Below are positions 8,561 through 19,533 of a stretch of DNA of 20,930 nt, piece by piece. The stretch spans positions 1-20,930 of IMG/VR virus record IMGVR_UViG_3300045902_000127; one strand, written 5' to 3'. The notes under the pieces are model-generated. The model worked only from the letters and a program-made list of their open reading frames with translations, did no database searches and had not been told where the DNA came from. A program made the position numbers and the translations under genes. This stretch comes from a virus. Numbering within the stretch: position 1 is the stretch's first letter; every line of letters begins with the position of its first letter.

Positions 8561-9113
8561 ATTGTGTTACTTTTTTACATAATTCTATAAAATATTCTTG
8601 ACTGTATGACTGTTTCATGTTGTTTATATCTTTATGTACCCATTGTACATTTCCAACATGATACCCTATGCTCGAATCTATCCTGTCTATTGATGCGTTA
8701 TTTATTGTATTGTCATTGGAAATTATCAGAGGCATACCAGATAATGCACATCTTTTTTTTTGTTTTAAAAATAATTCCCAAGCATATTCTATAGTAATAC
8801 TAACACCTAACAATCTTCTACGCTCTCCTCTACTTCTTAAATTTCTAAGGATTGCTCTATTCCAAAAGTCGCCGCTTATGTCTCCACACCCTTTCCAAAG
8901 AGGATTTTTAGAACCTTTTTTTACCTGCTCACAACCACAAGACTTAACAGGATGTTTTTTTCGAACTAAATGGCGCTGTGATACATAATAATCCTCCCGT
9001 CCACATGCTTCACACCTACATAAATAGACAACTGATTTGTTTTTCCGTTTTTCAGTCTTTTTCAAGACTGTTAGGTTGTTAAATCTAAGACCTTCTAAAT
9101 TTATTATCTTCAT
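8544..9113 (-). CDS. Free-standing HNH endonuclease
   Basis: 189 aa. The N-terminal part has a zinc-binding module (YLCRCEACGRE and SCGCE, residues about 30-60), then KGSKNPLWKG, which is typical of phage HNH homing-type nucleases. The C-terminal half has the HNH-like core: CALSGMPL, ASIDRIDSSIGY and GNVQWVHKDINNMK. It would cut DNA at or near a recognition site. It overlaps the end of the intein-bearing ribonucleotide reductase gene by 4 bp (ATGA), a typical place for a selfish nuclease next to a conserved gene. The likely target is the intein-free or HNH-free version of this locus. Confidence 0.88.
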   Translation of the reverse strand: MKIINLEGLRFNNLTVLKKTEKRKNKSVVYLCRCEACGREDYYVSQRHLVRKKHPVKSCGCEQVKKGSKNPLWKGCGDISGDFWNRAILRNLRSRGERRRLLGVSITIEYAWELFLKQKKRCALSGMPLIISNDNTINNASIDRIDSSIGYHVGNVQWVHKDINNMKQSYSQEYFIELCKKVTQYENNK

Positions 9114-12100
9114 TTTACCTCACACTGCCCACCACTACATGCTAATTCGCCTTGTAAATTAGTCTCATCATCAAACTCAACAACCTTAGACAAGTCTATT
9201 GCACGTAATGTTTTCATTAATTCTTCGTATTTCTCCTCTGTTATTGTCTCAAAAGGCGACTGTATGTAAGTACCGCTGTCATATGGAAGCACAGACAGCC
9301 CGTTATAGGAGTCCCTGTTCTGCCACATCCATTCGCCTACGATCTCCCACTCGTCCGGCTTTATTGATACAGTAGCCGATATATTGTGAGTGTTTTGTCC
9401 ATCATGGTGACCTTTAGAGACCCAAGTATTGTAGAACAATTTTACCCTCTCTAGTAAATCAATAGGGGACTCGTGTCTCAAGATTGAACCTTCTGGAGCT
9501 TTTTGCGGAATACTAATAACGGCTGTGTCATGTGGTCTGAAATATTCATCCTCGATTAATTCTGGATGATGTATAGACAAGTAGGTGTATATAGCCTCAT
9601 TCTTGTTCACTCTAATCCTTCTTATGTAGTGACTGTCATGCCAAGCATGTATGCCAGAAGACGTTCCAAACACCAAACTACTCGTACCCGCTGGTTTTAC
9701 AGTGGTTATTCTTGATGCATAGTTTATGCCTATCCTTGCTGCGTAGGACAGGTTTACTTGGTTTGCCACTTCTGCTGCTTCCTCTAAATCCAAATTAAGC
9801 ACTTTACCGCTTCCTATACCTGTCATAGATACTCCAAGTAGTGCATCTTTTTCAGTAGTTCTCTTCCATATAGGACGTAAATAGTGAAAGTCAGTATAAC
9901 TTGCTTGCAGTGTTCCAAGAAAAGTGGCCGCTGCTACCCTCTTATTTAGCTCCTCTTGGGTTTCTACATCAGATGCATTAATCTCTACTAGATTACAAAA
10001 CTGAAAAGGTCTGAGGGCAATCTCGCAGCAATTTCCAGTAATACTATGCGATATTTGAAAGCAATGTGTTTCATCCATTACAGATATATCCCAAACGTCT
10101 TCCTCTAAATCTGTTTCCATTACAGATATTACTTTTATTGTACTATTATCATAAACACTTTTATTTTCCCACACAAATTCGTCGAGTAAATTTTGCTTGT
10201 ACTCAACAGACAGTTTAAAGACGCTTCTAAAATGTTCTATGTTAGACTTTCCTGTTATACTAACATCATATATAGTATATTCAGTATTCTCTATCATAGA
10301 AATAGACTTTGAAAGATTTGTTTTTATCCCATAGAAGCCTAATAAATCAGAAATATCCTTAGCCATTGCTTCATTGGCAGTTGTAAAGGTTATTCTTTTC
10401 TTTACACCAGTTTCTACAATCCCATTGGAACTAAACAGAGCATCTATAAGTCCCTTTCTAAAAGATTCAGATGCACGATTCCATACAGTTTTTGGAAGTC
10501 CTTCTCTTTTATTTGAATACTCAAACCTTTCCTGAAACCTTTCCCAATCTTTGTCTGATGTATTCAACTCATAAGATGTTCCTCTACTAATTAGGTTAGC
10601 ATTTACACCTATCCCCCTTAAACATTCTATTAACTTATCCTTTATTCCATCTTTTTCTGTACATATCAACCCATGTTGCAAATAACCTTCTTTTCTAACA
10701 GTAGTCCACCCATCCCCAAGATGCCATCCACATAAGAATCCTTCATCATAAGTTCCTTCAAACCCAAAACCAAGTTCTGATTTTATTATATTTGGAAATT
10801 TATCTCCCTTTTTAAGGTGTTGAGTTTTTACTTTTAAAAAAGTTCCATTAGGCTGTTTTACAGCCCACTCATGCTCTTTTGTAGCATAATACTTATGACC
10901 TCCTTCTAAAGTTATTTCCCATAATTTTTGATTATTCCCAGACAGCCAGCATTTTGCAGGAGATAACTGTCCCTCTAAATTTGTAACTAAGAAAACTTTA
11001 TCTTGTAACTCTTCAATAGGGAATATTCCACAATTTGTCCACACCCTTGTTCCGGCTCTCAATGATGGATTAGTTCCCCATGTCTTATCGTTGCTCAGGT
11101 ATATTCCCGGCTCACCTGAATTACTGTTCTTTATCCGCTTCCACAAATCTAAGAAATACTCCTTCGTAACCTTGTGCCTAAGCAACACTGCCGAATTATT
11201 TGCTCTGCCTCTCTGTGGGTTTAGTTCCCACCAGTTCCCGCTCTTGCATGAGATCATCTCATCGTCATCTGCGTTAAACAGGGAAATTAAGGCCGCCCTC
11301 CTTATACCTCCTGCAAGTACTGCGTCTGCTATGTGGCAAATGATATCGTGTACTTCAATTGGCCTAAGTTTGTCGCCGTCTTCCTTGCTCGATAGTATAC
11401 CTTCAATCTTAACAAGACATTCTTTCAGCGGCTGAGGGCCGGGGGCTTTGCCTCCCGATGTTACCAATCTTGAACCTTTTGGCCTAATGTCTCCAAAGTC
11501 AAAATTTATCGTAGCCCCTCCTTGGAAGTAAGACTTCATCAAAACTTTTATGGCATCAGCCCAACCTTCTATACTATCTCCTACTAACCACCTTCTCCTC
11601 CTATCTTTCCTTGGTTTTCGTATTTCAGGGAGTTTTTCAACGTGATGGTTTTGAACTGAAAAACCTACACCTGTTCCCCCTAACAATAGAAACATGGTCT
11701 CTGAAAATGCTCTCCAATCGTCTATTGGAAGGAAAGCGCAGTTTCCAGTAGAAAGTCCACCAGAAAGCACAAATGCCCTTGTATTCTCGACCTCTAAACA
11801 CCAAACATCTTCGTATTCAACATTATATTGTATATCTCTCAAAACCCAATACATTCCTTGAATAGGGTCTGCCTCTTCATAATTAAAATTAGAAAATGTG
11901 TCCGTTACTGGAAGCAACTTGTCTCCTATTTTTATACTTGTGGTATCACTTCCATCGCTTAATATCCATCTATGATTATTAGTTGCATATACAGTTTTTT
12001 CTGATTTGTTCTTTATAAAGGTTAACTTAGATAATGGCTGTTTACCATACTGCTTAACCCTTGCAGGTTGCCATGTTCCATCTGGTGACAATACAACTAT

Positions 12101-12436
12101 CTCATCTCCATCATTAAAATCTTCAAAAGATTTAACTCCAATCGAAGTAATAAACTTAGTGTTTCGTTTAAAACAATTGTAAATTCTTGTTGGGTTTATT
12201 TCTATTGGCTTTCCTGCAAACTGCAATGATCGCATAGAAGGCAAAACTTTCTTGTCGTACACAAATTTATACGCTTCTTCTATCTCCTCAACAAGATACG
12301 GAAATTTATTTATGTGCATCTCTTTGTTTCGCTCAATCAATTCTTGCCATGTTTCCCTTCTCTGTTTTGATGGAATGTATTTCGCATACTTCATAAAAAC
12401 AGTTAAGTCGCTCAGTATTCTCTGACTAATGTCCAT
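9110..12436 (-). CDS. nrdJ: Class II (adenosylcobalamin-dependent) ribonucleotide reductase with two inteins
   Basis: 1108 codons, of which about 618 form the mature enzyme after removal of two inteins (residues 88-232 and 458-802). It reduces ribonucleotides to deoxyribonucleotides for phage DNA synthesis using a cobalamin-derived radical. Extein landmarks: RIYN/CAFLPIDDW, GGTGVGFSV, SGEPGIYL, GTNP/CCEIALRPFQFC, TTVKPAGTSS and a C-terminal ACSGGQC tail. C803 and C814 are spaced 11 residues apart, like the thiyl cysteine C408 and redox C419 of the Lactobacillus enzyme. C233 fits the position of C119, and the two tail cysteines fit the reductant pair. No separate small subunit is present, consistent with class II. 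It is preceded 10 bp upstream by an AAGGAG site and follows the helicase gene by 18 bp. Confidence 0.95.
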   Translation of the reverse strand: MDISQRILSDLTVFMKYAKYIPSKQRRETWQELIERNKEMHINKFPYLVEEIEEAYKFVYDKKVLPSMRSLQFAGKPIEINPTRIYNCFKRNTKFITSIGVKSFEDFNDGDEIVVLSPDGTWQPARVKQYGKQPLSKLTFIKNKSEKTVYATNNHRWILSDGSDTTSIKIGDKLLPVTDTFSNFNYEEADPIQGMYWVLRDIQYNVEYEDVWCLEVENTRAFVLSGGLSTGNCAFLPIDDWRAFSETMFLLLGGTGVGFSVQNHHVEKLPEIRKPRKDRRRRWLVGDSIEGWADAIKVLMKSYFQGGATINFDFGDIRPKGSRLVTSGGKAPGPQPLKECLVKIEGILSSKEDGDKLRPIEVHDIICHIADAVLAGGIRRAALISLFNADDDEMISCKSGNWWELNPQRGRANNSAVLLRHKVTKEYFLDLWKRIKNSNSGEPGIYLSNDKTWGTNPSLRAGTRVWTNCGIFPIEELQDKVFLVTNLEGQLSPAKCWLSGNNQKLWEITLEGGHKYYATKEHEWAVKQPNGTFLKVKTQHLKKGDKFPNIIKSELGFGFEGTYDEGFLCGWHLGDGWTTVRKEGYLQHGLICTEKDGIKDKLIECLRGIGVNANLISRGTSYELNTSDKDWERFQERFEYSNKREGLPKTVWNRASESFRKGLIDALFSSNGIVETGVKKRITFTTANEAMAKDISDLLGFYGIKTNLSKSISMIENTEYTIYDVSITGKSNIEHFRSVFKLSVEYKQNLLDEFVWENKSVYDNSTIKVISVMETDLEEDVWDISVMDETHCFQISHSITGNCCEIALRPFQFCNLVEINASDVETQEELNKRVAAATFLGTLQASYTDFHYLRPIWKRTTEKDALLGVSMTGIGSGKVLNLDLEEAAEVANQVNLSYAARIGINYASRITTVKPAGTSSLVFGTSSGIHAWHDSHYIRRIRVNKNEAIYTYLSIHHPELIEDEYFRPHDTAVISIPQKAPEGSILRHESPIDLLERVKLFYNTWVSKGHHDGQNTHNISATVSIKPDEWEIVGEWMWQNRDSYNGLSVLPYDSGTYIQSPFETITEEKYEELMKTLRAIDLSKVVEFDDETNLQGELACSGGQCEVK
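10031..11065 (-). other. Intein 2 in the ribonucleotide reductase, with LAGLIDADG endonuclease domain
   Basis: 345 aa (residues 458-802), located between GTNP and CCEIALRPF. It begins with Ser rather than the more usual Cys and ends ...SITGN, followed by Cys+1. The splicing blocks are visible: ATKEHEW (block B) and VWDISVMDETHCF (block F). The middle holds a LAGLIDADG-type homing endonuclease with FLCGWHLGDGW (block C) and GLIDALFSSNG (block E). In block E the position usually Asp is Asn, so cleavage may be impaired. The insertion point is the active-site loop: the Cys that completes splicing is also the presumed radical-bearing cysteine. Thus no active enzyme exists until splicing occurs. 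Confidence 0.92.
11741..12175 (-). other. Intein 1 in the ribonucleotide reductase, mini-intein
   Basis: 145 aa (residues 88-232) between RIYN and CAFLPIDDW. It starts with Cys (CFKRNTKF), has TNNHRW (block B) and EDVWCLEVENTRAFVLSGG (block F), and ends LSTGN before Cys+1. The penultimate residue is Gly instead of His, as in intein 2. There is no endonuclease domain, so it is a minimal splicing element that cannot home by itself. Both inteins have the same terminal TGN, suggesting common ancestry or convergent fit to Cys+1 sites. Confidence 0.92.
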
Positions 12437-16535: not shown

Positions 16536-17378
16536 TTAGAATGGTATATCGTCAATTGACAAGGAAGATTCAGGTTCATTAACATCTTGCTTTGAAAAAA
16601 TCTTTTCAAACTTTTCCGTAAATTCATCTGCAACCTTGTTAACCTCATGTGAAGTATCCGATTTATCTTCCTTTGCCTGTGCTACGTCCCCAGCATCTCC
16701 ACTGATGTAAGCGAGCAGTGCTGCTTCAAGCTCTTCTTCTGTTGGGCACTTGTAAACATCAACTATGTTCTTGATGCCCTTGATTTTTTCAAAGAGCACA
16801 GGATCATCAGTCATCCTAGAGGGATTTCCTCTAGGACGGATAAAAGTCTCTGGAAATGCGCCTTCTTTGGATGGTGGAACAAACTCTACTGTTAAATCTC
16901 TGCCACTGTCAACGTCCGAAATATCTCCGTAGTCTTCATCTGCATATAGTTTCAAGACCTCAGCGTAGTACGATGGAGCCATGCCCCAGTAGAAAGGGCC
17001 TGTATCGGGCTGACCGTCTGTGCCTCTAACAATTATTGGAACAAATACCCTCTTCTTTGCAGAAATTTTATTTGCGACCTTCCAGTTGTTAGAAACCGTT
17101 TCTTTGTCGCCTTTCTCGCCCTTCAACTTGTTGCAGAACTTCACAATAGGGTCTGGCAGACCGAAAGAGGAAGGTGCAAGCATTGGCTTTCCAAACTCGT
17201 AATAGAAGAAAAGTTCTGTGCCGGGGAAGTCCGGGTTGTGCGGGCTTGGGACTATCCGAACCCTCTGGGTTCCGGGTTTTGGTTTCCAGAAAAGAGGATC
17301 GCCCTGAGTTCCTGATTTTTGCTGTTGCTTGGCAGCATTGTGCTCTGCCAATTTTTGTCTGATTTTTTCTAAATCCAT
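16536..17378 (-). CDS. gp32-like single-stranded DNA-binding protein
   Basis: 280 aa. A basic, Gln-rich N-terminus (KLAEHNAAKQQQK) is followed by LFWKPKPGTQRVRIVPS, typical of the OB-fold core of T4 gp32-like SSBs. Then come KFCNKL, ISAKKRVFVPIIVRG and FYWGMAPSYY. The acidic C-terminal tail ending SIDDIPF is the usual docking site for partner proteins. It coats single-stranded DNA and helps load the recombinase encoded 2 bp downstream. The four-ligand zinc site of T4 gp32 is not evident. The gene is the first after the cassette block and appears to have its own promoter. Confidence 0.85.
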   Translation of the reverse strand: MDLEKIRQKLAEHNAAKQQQKSGTQGDPLFWKPKPGTQRVRIVPSPHNPDFPGTELFFYYEFGKPMLAPSSFGLPDPIVKFCNKLKGEKGDKETVSNNWKVANKISAKKRVFVPIIVRGTDGQPDTGPFYWGMAPSYYAEVLKLYADEDYGDISDVDSGRDLTVEFVPPSKEGAFPETFIRPRGNPSRMTDDPVLFEKIKGIKNIVDVYKCPTEEELEAALLAYISGDAGDVAQAKEDKSDTSHEVNKVADEFTEKFEKIFSKQDVNEPESSLSIDDIPF

Positions 17379-17482: not shown

Positions 17483-17632
17483 TATTTTTTTGTTATATTT
17501 TCCTAAAAGCATATACTATTTTTATATTTTTTATATCTCTGAAAAAACGCCAGTTTCACGCAACTCAGAACAAAACGATTGAAAACATAAAAAGTACGAC
17601 AAAAGTTTCGTATATTTAAGAGTTATGCGAGA

Positions 17633-18013
17633 TTATACGACAACCTCCCAATAAGACTGAATTTCACTTGACAAAAGCCATTCAAAATCTTGGTTTTCTT
17701 CTATCAATCTCTCCTCGTATGGCTTTGCTTCTATTTCGTCTAACGCCTGTTTTTTTGACATAATTCCTAATGCAACTTTTGACCAATATTTACCCCGATA
17801 CCATTCTACTTTATCAGCAAATCTTAATGTATCACCGAAGTAAATCTTAGTTTTATTTCTATCAATAACTCCAGTAAACTGTTGCATTTTAAATTTACTC
17901 AAATCAAGTTTTGAAAGTGTAATTAAATCGGAATATTTATTTGATATGTAAAATACATCTCCGTTTTCGGCTGTTAATTTAAAGTCAAACGGCAACCCAA
18001 AATAACCTCGCAT
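17633..18013 (-). CDS. Cassette gene: YopX-like protein
   Basis: 126 aa. The segment MQQFTGVIDRNKTKIYFGDTLRF matches the hallmark of YopX-family proteins (QFTG-hxDxxxxxIYxGD), and VEWYRGKYW fits the following strand. The N-terminus is shorter than usual for the family. YopX proteins are widespread in phages and mobile DNA; their role is unknown. The ATG lies within GTTATGC, the core of the upstream attC site, so the recombination point and start codon coincide. The downstream side has GCATAAC right after the stop, the beginning of its own attC, whose second half is missing. Confidence 0.6.
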   Translation of the reverse strand: MRGYFGLPFDFKLTAENGDVFYISNKYSDLITLSKLDLSKFKMQQFTGVIDRNKTKIYFGDTLRFADKVEWYRGKYWSKVALGIMSKKQALDEIEAKPYEERLIEENQDFEWLLSSEIQSYWEVVV

Positions 18014-18142
18014 AACATCGGTTTGGCAAGATTGGGGGTTTTGTTCTAAATTTTTAATTTATATTTCTATTAAAAATTTGTATTAAAATTGAGCGATTGT
18101 GCTTCTAAGTCCCCAACCTCGCCAAGCCGAGAACCGTTATGT
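18010..18142 (-). other. attC-like recombination site 1
   Basis: The 5' half ACATAACGGTTCTCGGCTTGG, continuing to GCGAGGTTGGGG, pairs with the 3' half CCCCCAATCTTGCCAAACCGATGTTATGC across an AT-rich centre. Outer 7-mers are ACATAAC and GTTATGC, close to RYYYAAC and GTTRRRY. Two or three extra bases on one arm give the extrahelical bulges typical of attC. It directly follows the stop codon of the gene at 18149-18511. Confidence 0.7.
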
Positions 18143-18148
18143 GCAAGG

Positions 18149-18511
18149 CTACTTTGACACTTCGATAATAGCATCAGGATATTGTTTACAGGCTTCTAAA
18201 TACTTTTCGACAAAATGGACAAAATGTTCATACATTCCCCACCCATTAGGGGAATTGAATTTTTCAAAATGTTCTGGTCTTTTCTTTAAATCAGCTAATC
18301 CTTTTTCAAGTAGTTCAACTATTTCACTTGCTTTTGATTTTCCAATTTCGTCTGGTCTCCAAAGTGCTTCGTAAATTCCTGCTTCATCTGCCATTTTACC
18401 TAAATTATGGGTAATGTTTGCATCATAAACAGTCTCATCTTCCTCTGTTAATGTTTTGCCAGCATCGTAGCTAATCCATTTTTTTCGTGTTAAATAAACA
18501 TCTAAACTCAT
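18149..18511 (-). CDS. Cassette gene: hypothetical protein, 120 aa
   Basis: I choose the ATG at 18511 (MSLDVYLTRKKW) because the longer open frame upstream runs through the attC stem. The protein is acidic and helical, with conserved-looking stretches TEEDETVYDANITHNLGKMA and YEALWRPDE. It strongly resembles small proteins of unknown function that occur widely in bacteria, starting with the same MSLDVYL motif, but I cannot name a family with certainty. Its stop TAG is 7 bp from the attC site downstream, the compact layout of an integron cassette. Confidence 0.7.
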   Translation of the reverse strand: MSLDVYLTRKKWISYDAGKTLTEEDETVYDANITHNLGKMADEAGIYEALWRPDEIGKSKASEIVELLEKGLADLKKRPEHFEKFNSPNGWGMYEHFVHFVEKYLEACKQYPDAIIEVSK

Positions 18512-18550
18512 ATTAATTTTTTTAAGTTTCCTACTGATAAACCGCCCAGC

Positions 18551-18649
18551 AGGTAACAGCGGTTTTGTGCTATTTGCCCCATTAACATTTGTGGCAACTT
18601 GAAGCATTGTGCAAGGGGCAAACAGACACAAAGCCGCAAAGCGTTAGCG
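18551..18649 (-). other. attC-like recombination site 2
   Basis: The 5' half CGCTAACGCTTTGCGGCTTT, continuing to GTGTCTGTTTGCCCC, pairs with the 3' half GGGGCAAATAGCACAAAACCGCTGTTACCT. The outer 7-mers are CGCTAAC and GTTACCT; arms match over GCGGyTTTGTG and TTTGCCCC with an unpaired insertion (GCTTT) on one side. The stop codon of the preceding truncated cassette gene lies inside the 5' outer core. Confidence 0.7.
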
Positions 18650-18838
18650 GTCATTGCTAACAAGCTCTTTATACTTATGGAATATTTCAAGTATTCCAAA
18701 TTCAGTTATTCTTAATTCATTATTTACACCTTCGTAAACAAATTGACTACCAATGTCTGCCAACACTTTTGTTTGTTCATCTGTTAATTGCAACGAACCG
18801 CTAATAACAAATATCTGTTCCTTGGTTTGTGATTGGAT
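18644..18838 (-). pseudogene. 5'-truncated cassette gene
   Basis: About 64 codons are open (ISGSLQLTDEQTKVL, GSQFVYEGVNNELRI) up to TAA inside attC 2. No start codon is available: the frame opens inside the last codons of the polymerase and its beginning coincides with the polymerase stop. The beginning of this cassette was therefore probably lost where the array joins the phage sequence. Function unknown. Confidence 0.5.
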
Positions 18839-19533
18839 TACGGTAATTTTATTGTTTTCATGTTCTGATAGTCTTTTCCTATCTTAACACTGTACGGTAT
18901 CTCCTTGAACACCTTCTTTATCAGGCCAATTATTAAATCTCGCTCATCAATGTGCACATCAAACAAGAAAGAGTCATATGTATATAGTATCAACTTAGTG
19001 CCGCTATCTCTTAAACCTTGTAACAGTTCTGTTATGAGCAGTGAGTTAAACTCTGTTTCAAGATTCTGCAACATGTAGTTGAAAATCTTAGTCTTAGTAG
19101 ACTCTCCTATCATGTTCTTATTTATCGGCCTCTCAAACAACAAAGTCTTTAAAGTGCCCGCCATGAACTTGTCATATATAGACTGAGCAAGGGCATTTAT
19201 AGAATAAAAAGGCTCCTTGTCAAGTAAATCCTTGTGGATGCCTCCATATATTTGCTTGAAGGTGTAATCCTTTGGATTTACTCCAGCTGGGTAGTGCTTA
19301 GATAAATCAGAGTACACATCCTTTGGGAAATCTATGTCACAAATCATGTACAATAGATACAAGTGAAAACCGCTCAAGTCCACTTCCATCAGACCTCCTT
19401 TGCCTCCATGCCTACTTATGAACCTTTTTCTGGTTCCGTCTTCCTTATTCATAGCAGCATAGTTTACTTGATTGAAGTGGTTGCTTGGTCTACCTGTCAA
19501 GGAGTAGGGGTTGTACTCACAATATTCAAACAT
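18838..19533 (-). CDS. Divergent DNA polymerase, catalytic (palm) half after an in-frame TGA
   Basis: 231 aa from ATG 19533, in the same frame as the ORF that ends at TGA 19564-19566. It has YNPYSLTGRPSN, NYAAMNKEDG, MEVDLSGFHLYLL (motif A-like, catalytic Asp), YTFKQIYGG (finger region), a nucleotide-binding FERPI segment and LYTYDSFLFDV (motif C-like, Asp). This order is that of the divergent family A-like polymerases of some phages. The C-terminus (GKDYQNM) looks natural, so the cassette array begins right after the stop. It needs the upstream half for a complete enzyme. Either two polypeptides associate, the stop is suppressed, or the gene is dead. Alternative: re-initiation at this ATG, which lies 30 bp after the stop. 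Confidence 0.7.
   Translation of the reverse strand: MFEYCEYNPYSLTGRPSNHFNQVNYAAMNKEDGTRKRFISRHGGKGGLMEVDLSGFHLYLLYMICDIDFPKDVYSDLSKHYPAGVNPKDYTFKQIYGGIHKDLLDKEPFYSINALAQSIYDKFMAGTLKTLLFERPINKNMIGESTKTKIFNYMLQNLETEFNSLLITELLQGLRDSGTKLILYTYDSFLFDVHIDERDLIIGLIKKVFKEIPYSVKIGKDYQNMKTIKLP

Follow-up and report, generated by a model that had tools for sequence, protein, structure and literature searches.

It is quite probable that the DNA analysed here carries a small array of integron-like cassettes, that arrays of this type are common in Bacteroidota phages, and that their units are exchanged at AAC/GTT boxes by a recombinase. The window spans an entire IMG/VR virus record (20,930 bases), and its array consists of two complete units and one gene remnant, with all genes on the minus strand. 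Sites, units, an attI-like end, synteny with a recombinase in related phages, and gain and loss of units at the boxes among isolates of two cultured phages were read directly from the sequences compared. The array and its two neighbouring genes, listed from the upstream side, comprise the following features. The unit limits derive from segments shared between phages and from isolate junctions.

18838..19533, minus strand: phage gene of 231 aa, upstream of the array and conserved in relatives L002-L010
18643..18837, minus strand: remnant of the first cassette gene, an open frame entering from the 231-aa gene and ending in R'' CGCTAAC (18649-18643)
18551..18649, minus strand: attC-like hairpin site 2, R'' CGCTAAC 18649-18643, R' GTTACCT 18557-18551
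18136..18642, minus strand: unit A (hairpin 2 and c121), AAC box to AAC box
18149..18511, minus strand: cassette gene c121, 120 aa, phrog_4019, unknown function
18010..18142, minus strand: attC-like hairpin site 1, R'' ACATAAC 18142-18136, R' GTTATGC 18016-18010
17622..18135, minus strand: unit B (hairpin 1 and c126), ending in R'' GCATAAC 17628-17622
17633..18013, minus strand: cassette gene c126, 126 aa, weak YopX-like match, phrog_98
17609..17624, minus strand: attI-like junction AACTCTTAAATATACG, rank 1 among the 861 AAC triplets of the window
16536..17378, minus strand: SSB gene, next after the array, phrog_1192

Phage replication genes stand on both sides of the array, all on the minus strand; besides SSB they encode UvsX (phrog_97), a 5'-exonuclease (phrog_107) and DNA polymerase (phrog_17). 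An earlier note on this DNA had placed the block in a phage replication module and not in a bacterial chromosome, which these matches bear out. The same note put the array between the polymerase and SSB genes. The SSB side of that statement held; the 231-aa gene on the other side gave no match in Pfam and PHROG searches, and the family A DNA polymerase gene lies at 131-2416. No tyrosine recombinase was found in the 20.9-kb record, in agreement with the earlier claim that no integrase is present, and the SSB gene occupies the position that the recombinase gene has in related arrays. Two observations were made by eye: TATCTTGC before the SSB gene is promoter-like and fits Bacteroidota, and a 1108-aa ribonucleotide reductase-like ORF (9110-12436, minus strand) has two apparent intein-like insertions.

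The window comes from a metagenome assembly, and the array could be a chimera of bacterial cassettes and phage DNA. We consider this extremely improbable: a separate contig, L001, carries the array in the same place with identical junctions (99.96% identity to the window; three mismatches, none at the array junctions), and the sequence at the array end is attI-like, of the phage type. The array is missing from more distant relatives. In a 122-kb relative (L002/G003), a different gene fills the corresponding gap, no attC-like site was found in the 120 kb scanned, and no tyrosine recombinase was found in its 122 kb.

The two palindromes described earlier as having attC layout are present, and when folded as single strands both form hairpins above the level of shuffled sequence. 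At site 1 the inner arms form a duplex of -19.6 kcal/mol, compared with -14.8 for the best of 60 dinucleotide shuffles of the window; the whole site folds with z = -4.66 (0/200 shuffles as good), and its outer boxes, ACATAAC and GTTATGC, are paired. The arms of site 2 reach -23.0 kcal/mol, with a folding z of -2.62 and weaker outer boxes, in which 5/7 positions pair. The sites show the attC combination of R''/R' boxes (..AAC/GTT..), pairing arms, an asymmetric unpaired spacer and structure conserved over sequence, and they follow the canonical RYYYAAC/GTTRRRY form in part (GTTAT.. and GTTACC.. boxes). A single consensus fitted 30 hairpins taken from different units; compensatory changes were seen in 19 of its 26 pairs, and its TAAC and GTTA boxes were invariant. 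This covariation is partly built in, because the sites were picked for pairing. An Rfam search of the window, both at the gathering threshold and with E-values as high as 10, returned chance matches to eukaryotic RNA families only. With its two sites less than 650 bp apart, the window qualifies by form as a CALIN, that is, at least two attC sites close together and no integrase.

The array of the window ends in GCATAAC TCTTAAATATACG. A model of the right half of the attI-like site scored this end at 5.6, first of the AAC triplets on both strands, with the next at 2.4; the score is lower than that of every training site (minimum 7.6). In the recombinase-bearing phages the attI-like consensus is AACTATTATATATA, with AACTCTTATATATACG as the L351 version. 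The sequence ATTG......TAAC TATTATATATA was conserved at most of 80 loci, usually 45-60 bases before the recombinase, and its TAAC is the end box of the last cassette gene. AACTATTATATATA before the phage recombinase is an analogue of an attI beside an integrase, and the array end of the window is similar. The upstream hairpin of the gene remnant is gone, and the remnant had a left-half score of 7.7 for the R''/attI motif; a search for its relatives found L001 alone.

Box-bounded segments common to different phages ran from R'' to R'' (hairpin and gene) in four cases or from R' to R'' (c121 alone), and none ran from R' to R'. One 315-bp R''-to-R'' unit was 100% identical in L177 and L314, with different flanks, and ended at AAC boxes. 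The longest ORF between sites lay along the array direction in 129 cases versus 8 against it. These shared segments and the ORF direction point to a unit composed of a hairpin followed by a gene read toward attI. A classical unit, gene then attC, was adopted first and was dropped in view of the shared segments, which were R''-to-R'' and never R'-to-R', and of the unrelated sequence after c121 copies. Breakpoint counts of shared segments are not independent and were used for position alone. The earlier description of small genes flanked by sites corresponds to two units and a remnant. The shared segments and isolate junctions of related arrays indicate that such sites bound mobile single-gene units, in which the classical order is replaced by hairpin then gene, pointing to attI.

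Relatives of c121 were found at 40 IMG/VR loci and on two bacterial MAG contigs. Close relatives (78-93% identical) occurred in many phage contigs and in a Bacteroidota MAG, where the site comes after the gene. Close copies have a common unit that starts with GTTACCTGC and ends with GCAGGTAAC, with unrelated sequence outside: in 12 copies the median gene identity was 0.89, and the median over the 75 bases past the end box was 0.48, equal to the level of shuffled sequence. Over the 75 bases ahead of the start box, identity exceeded 0.9 in three pairs. As a marker, GTTAYSTGCTGGGCGG alone gave mostly chance matches in 120 stretches and was kept only in combination with the gene. For c126, whose start codon lies inside the R' box of site 1, a search for relatives found L001 alone. 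A c121 relative (44%) was also seen in the Tetrasphaera phage TJE1, a published CALIN phage (L062 4870-5190 = NC_019930 48869-49189), as its last gene, followed by an annotated terminator palindrome.

Some hairpins have been swapped between genes. One hairpin sequence of 23 exact bases was present in 15 stretches, after different genes, on contigs of up to 464 kb. Identical hairpins stand before different genes, and hairpin 2 of the window with its leader GTTACCTGCTGGGCGG has a 90% copy in L102 (~6223, minus strand) ahead of a different gene. The 3' arm of GCAAATATGAGAAGTAAATC hairpins (L190, L194 and other loci) holds TATATTTG, which resembles the Bacteroidota -7 promoter element, and such a hairpin may therefore also drive the gene behind it. 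The 60 cassette ORFs surveyed for cargo were mostly unknown and included three DNA methyltransferases; no match to other defence genes stood out among them.

A tyrosine recombinase was present in 9/29 phage records examined, most of which had been picked for holding such sites, and the seven intact genes belong to one family of ~266 aa. The nearest array lay upstream of the recombinase and pointed to it in 9/9 records, at a distance of 0.7 to 5.8 kb. A search with this family yielded about 80 phage loci on contigs of up to 362 kb. At these 80 loci, site density was 0.9/kb in the first kb upstream and decreased to 0.25 at 6 kb; 198 sites within 6 kb lay in the gene direction versus 2 reversed, and the downstream side held 2 sites in about 490 kb. 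A site was found at most 3 kb from the recombinase in 46 of the 52 loci with enough sequence. The scanner is a heuristic of our own, most loci are uncultivated contigs, and shuffled sequence gave no site in 414 kb. Shuffles and the downstream side served as negative controls; Freya and Ingeline, two cultured phages whose integrases were meant for this purpose, had similar sites in front of those genes, so cultured phages gave no clean negative control. Several recombinase records contain a terminase gene, including the 310-kb G009 and the 276-kb G025. The recombinase genes of L203 (G018) and L207 (G022) seem truncated within their own arrays, with open frames of 160 and 178 aa.

The earlier note had considered a cassette block in a phage replication cluster unusual. 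Some 80 recombinase-bearing contigs make the array type a common one in Bacteroidota phages, and its identification of integron-type cassettes holds for the attC anatomy and not for simple bacterial cassettes stranded in a phage, since the same sites occur beside a non-IntI recombinase. Against the NCBIfam integron integrase model TIGR02249 the phage family scored 148-159 bits versus a cut-off of 265, and the IntI insert (about 27 + 14 residues) was missing from all phage, bacterial A1-type, Freya and Ingeline sequences compared. The best family scores were Xer-type (NF040815 XerA_Arch, XerC/XerD), with L201 at 178.8 bits, under the cut-off of 220; to our knowledge, descriptions of these Xer-type families contain no link to cassette arrays. 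In the tree, phage recombinases formed one group (94/52), separate from IntI (100/100). A predicted recombinase structure (mean pLDDT 73, pTM 0.55), whose top PDB match was IntI 2a3v followed by Xer and Cre, was too weak to argue from. Relatives of the phage recombinase were detected in 110/396 Bacteroidota genomes sampled, with sites mostly 3' of the gene, and true IntI above the NCBIfam cut-off in 105/396, some with similar sites nearby. Both kinds of recombinase (L366-L415, L416-L427) are commoner in Bacteroidota genomes than older literature suggests.

The closest recombinases in cultured phages were those of Polaribacter phage Freya and Cellulophaga phage Ingeline, at 36-37% identity to L201; Danklef, a relative of Freya, has a related recombinase. 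Seven Freya isolates shared identical sequence as far as a position inside the array that directly precedes the recombinase. Beyond it they differed by losses of one or several units and by one gain, every one of them at AAC and most of them into attI: four different AAC boxes were joined straight to one attI-like AACACCCCTATAAC in Freya_1, 2, 5 and 9, one internal unit was lost from AAC to AAC in Freya_8, and a 472-bp unit missing from the other isolates was present at attI in Freya_6. Danklef_3 was without a 781-bp DNA methylase unit present in Danklef_1 and 5, cut at TAAC on both sides. In the stretches compared, variation in both phages was confined to the region upstream of their own recombinase gene. 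The Freya boxes (CAAC) differ from those of the large-phage family. In Danklef the annotation gives the recombinase gene as a short fragment next to an ORF in reverse orientation (L438 7973-8492, L439 8964-9483), and the gene may be broken; the isolates differ by one unit despite this. The text of the article on these phages (Bartlau et al. 2021, PMC8776804) is silent on integrons, insertions and deletions.

These junctions bear on two further explanations. Transcription terminators, named as an alternative in the earlier note, or unrelated repeats between small phage genes would account for hairpins that sit between genes, and weak terminator activity has been ascribed to attC sites (PMC9892861); the invariant TAAC and GTTA boxes, the covarying arms, the identical hairpins ahead of different genes in a single fixed orientation, and unit boundaries that fall at the boxes, above all at the Freya and Danklef junctions, contradict this and leave it very improbable. 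Equally hard to sustain are non-autonomous, hairpin-ended transposon units moved by single-strand transposition of the IS200/IS605 kind. The hairpins, the small size of the units and the separate exchange of hairpins and genes would suit them, whereas the recurrent neighbour is a tyrosine recombinase, the head-to-tail arrays of up to 11 sites end at a single attI-like sequence, and the junctions have only AAC or TAAC in common.

A weightier alternative, which we still judge unlikely, is that the window holds an ordinary CALIN, whose cassettes were formed and mobilised by an IntI of the host and picked up by the phage as it infected, and that the phage recombinase next to other arrays is incidental. 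IntI is frequent in the Bacteroidota genomes sampled, c121 occurs in a Bacteroidota MAG followed by a site, and such clusters are known in virulent phages and are active with IntI1 (PMC9892861). An orientation-specific synteny with a non-IntI phage recombinase and an adjoining attI-like site is hard to call incidental, as is the restriction of Freya and Danklef variation to the region before their own recombinase gene. Recombinase-driven exchange, the reading we prefer, has points against it as well. The IntI of 105/396 Bacteroidota genomes could move such units; the Freya recombinase is ~36% identical to the large-phage family and its boxes differ; exchange of hairpins between genes goes beyond simple cassette movement; in bacterial relatives the array lies on the opposite side of the gene; and recombinase is absent from both the window and the 122 kb of G003, while the attI-like score of the window falls under the training minimum.

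If recombinase-driven exchange is correct, the mobile unit would be a hairpin site, capable of folding as a single strand, followed by one small gene, and units would join at AAC/GTT boxes. The ~266-aa tyrosine recombinase, without the IntI additional domain and located behind the attI-like site at the array end in other phages, would cut at AAC, excise units and insert them at attI, so that the array would grow and shrink beside it. Synteny and junctions suggest that this enzyme catalyses the exchange, which may take a single-strand route. The source of incoming units is probably excised circles, supplied by co-infecting phages or by the host. What the window phage retains is a pair of units, the remnant of a gene and an attI-like end, with no recombinase in its known sequence; its own units, presumed mobile, would thus need a recombinase in trans, from a different phage, from the host or from some unsequenced stretch of its own genome, or else be frozen.

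We also lean, with less assurance, toward a broader reading: that large Bacteroidota phages and cultured flavobacterial phages run an integron-like system of their own, in which a non-IntI recombinase recognises folded hairpin sites, cuts at AAC and moves units, DNA methylases included, into an attI-like site next to its own gene, recombinase-less phages act as carriers, and hairpins and genes also recombine independently. New cassettes could then arise when a gene is joined to a circulating hairpin. Integrons have been treated as bacterial and, lately, archaeal platforms whose IntI recombines folded attC hairpins, and the additional domain of IntI has been described as necessary for activity. 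This domain is unique to integron integrases (as cited in PMC2426708), and by that usual criterion the phage system is no IntI-type integron, because its recombinases are without it. If the broader reading is true, a recombinase of this kind would suggest that the domain is not required, the arrays would be a dedicated phage organ for swapping accessory genes, including methylases, plausibly in evasion of host defence, and they would offer an independent view of the origin of cassettes, a long-standing open question. Freya and Danklef exist in culture, with isolates that already differ from one another, which makes the reading directly testable. In the open-access literature searched, we came across no account of a family of phage recombinases that has an attI-like site and hairpin arrays of its own, and none of such arrays in these large phages. 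attC sites in phages are already known; no phage-borne integron-like system with a non-IntI recombinase was found in the literature searched.

Among known systems, the integron, including the sedentary chromosomal integron, is similar in having a tyrosine recombinase beside an attI-like site, an array of one-gene units, structure-conserved hairpins, GTT and AAC boxes, and gain and loss at those boxes. The phage system differs in being carried by phages and in a recombinase without the IntI additional domain; furthermore, a classical cassette is a gene followed by attC and read away from attI, whereas the phage unit is a hairpin followed by a gene and read toward attI. Reverse (inverted) integrons occur in Treponema and planctomycetes, with IntI as the integrase. 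They share an odd orientation of integrase and cassettes; unlike them, the phage arrays reverse the gene-to-attI direction itself and have no IntI. Freya and Danklef (PMC8776804) resemble the large-phage system in a related recombinase with a variable region before its gene, and differ in a recombinase only ~36% identical to that family and, in Danklef, a gene that looks broken in the annotation. That phages carry attC sites and cassettes, as the earlier note proposed, had already been demonstrated, and some of these sites work with IntI1 (Qi et al. 2023, PMC9892861). Scanned with our own site scanner, one such phage, Polaribacter phage P12002L, had no array of the window type. Similar to the window, these phage CALINs (PMC9892861; P12002L, Tetrasphaera phage TJE1) have attC-like sites and small genes with no adjoining integrase in virulent phages; unlike them, the site family of the window is tied, in other phages, to a phage recombinase and an attI-like site.
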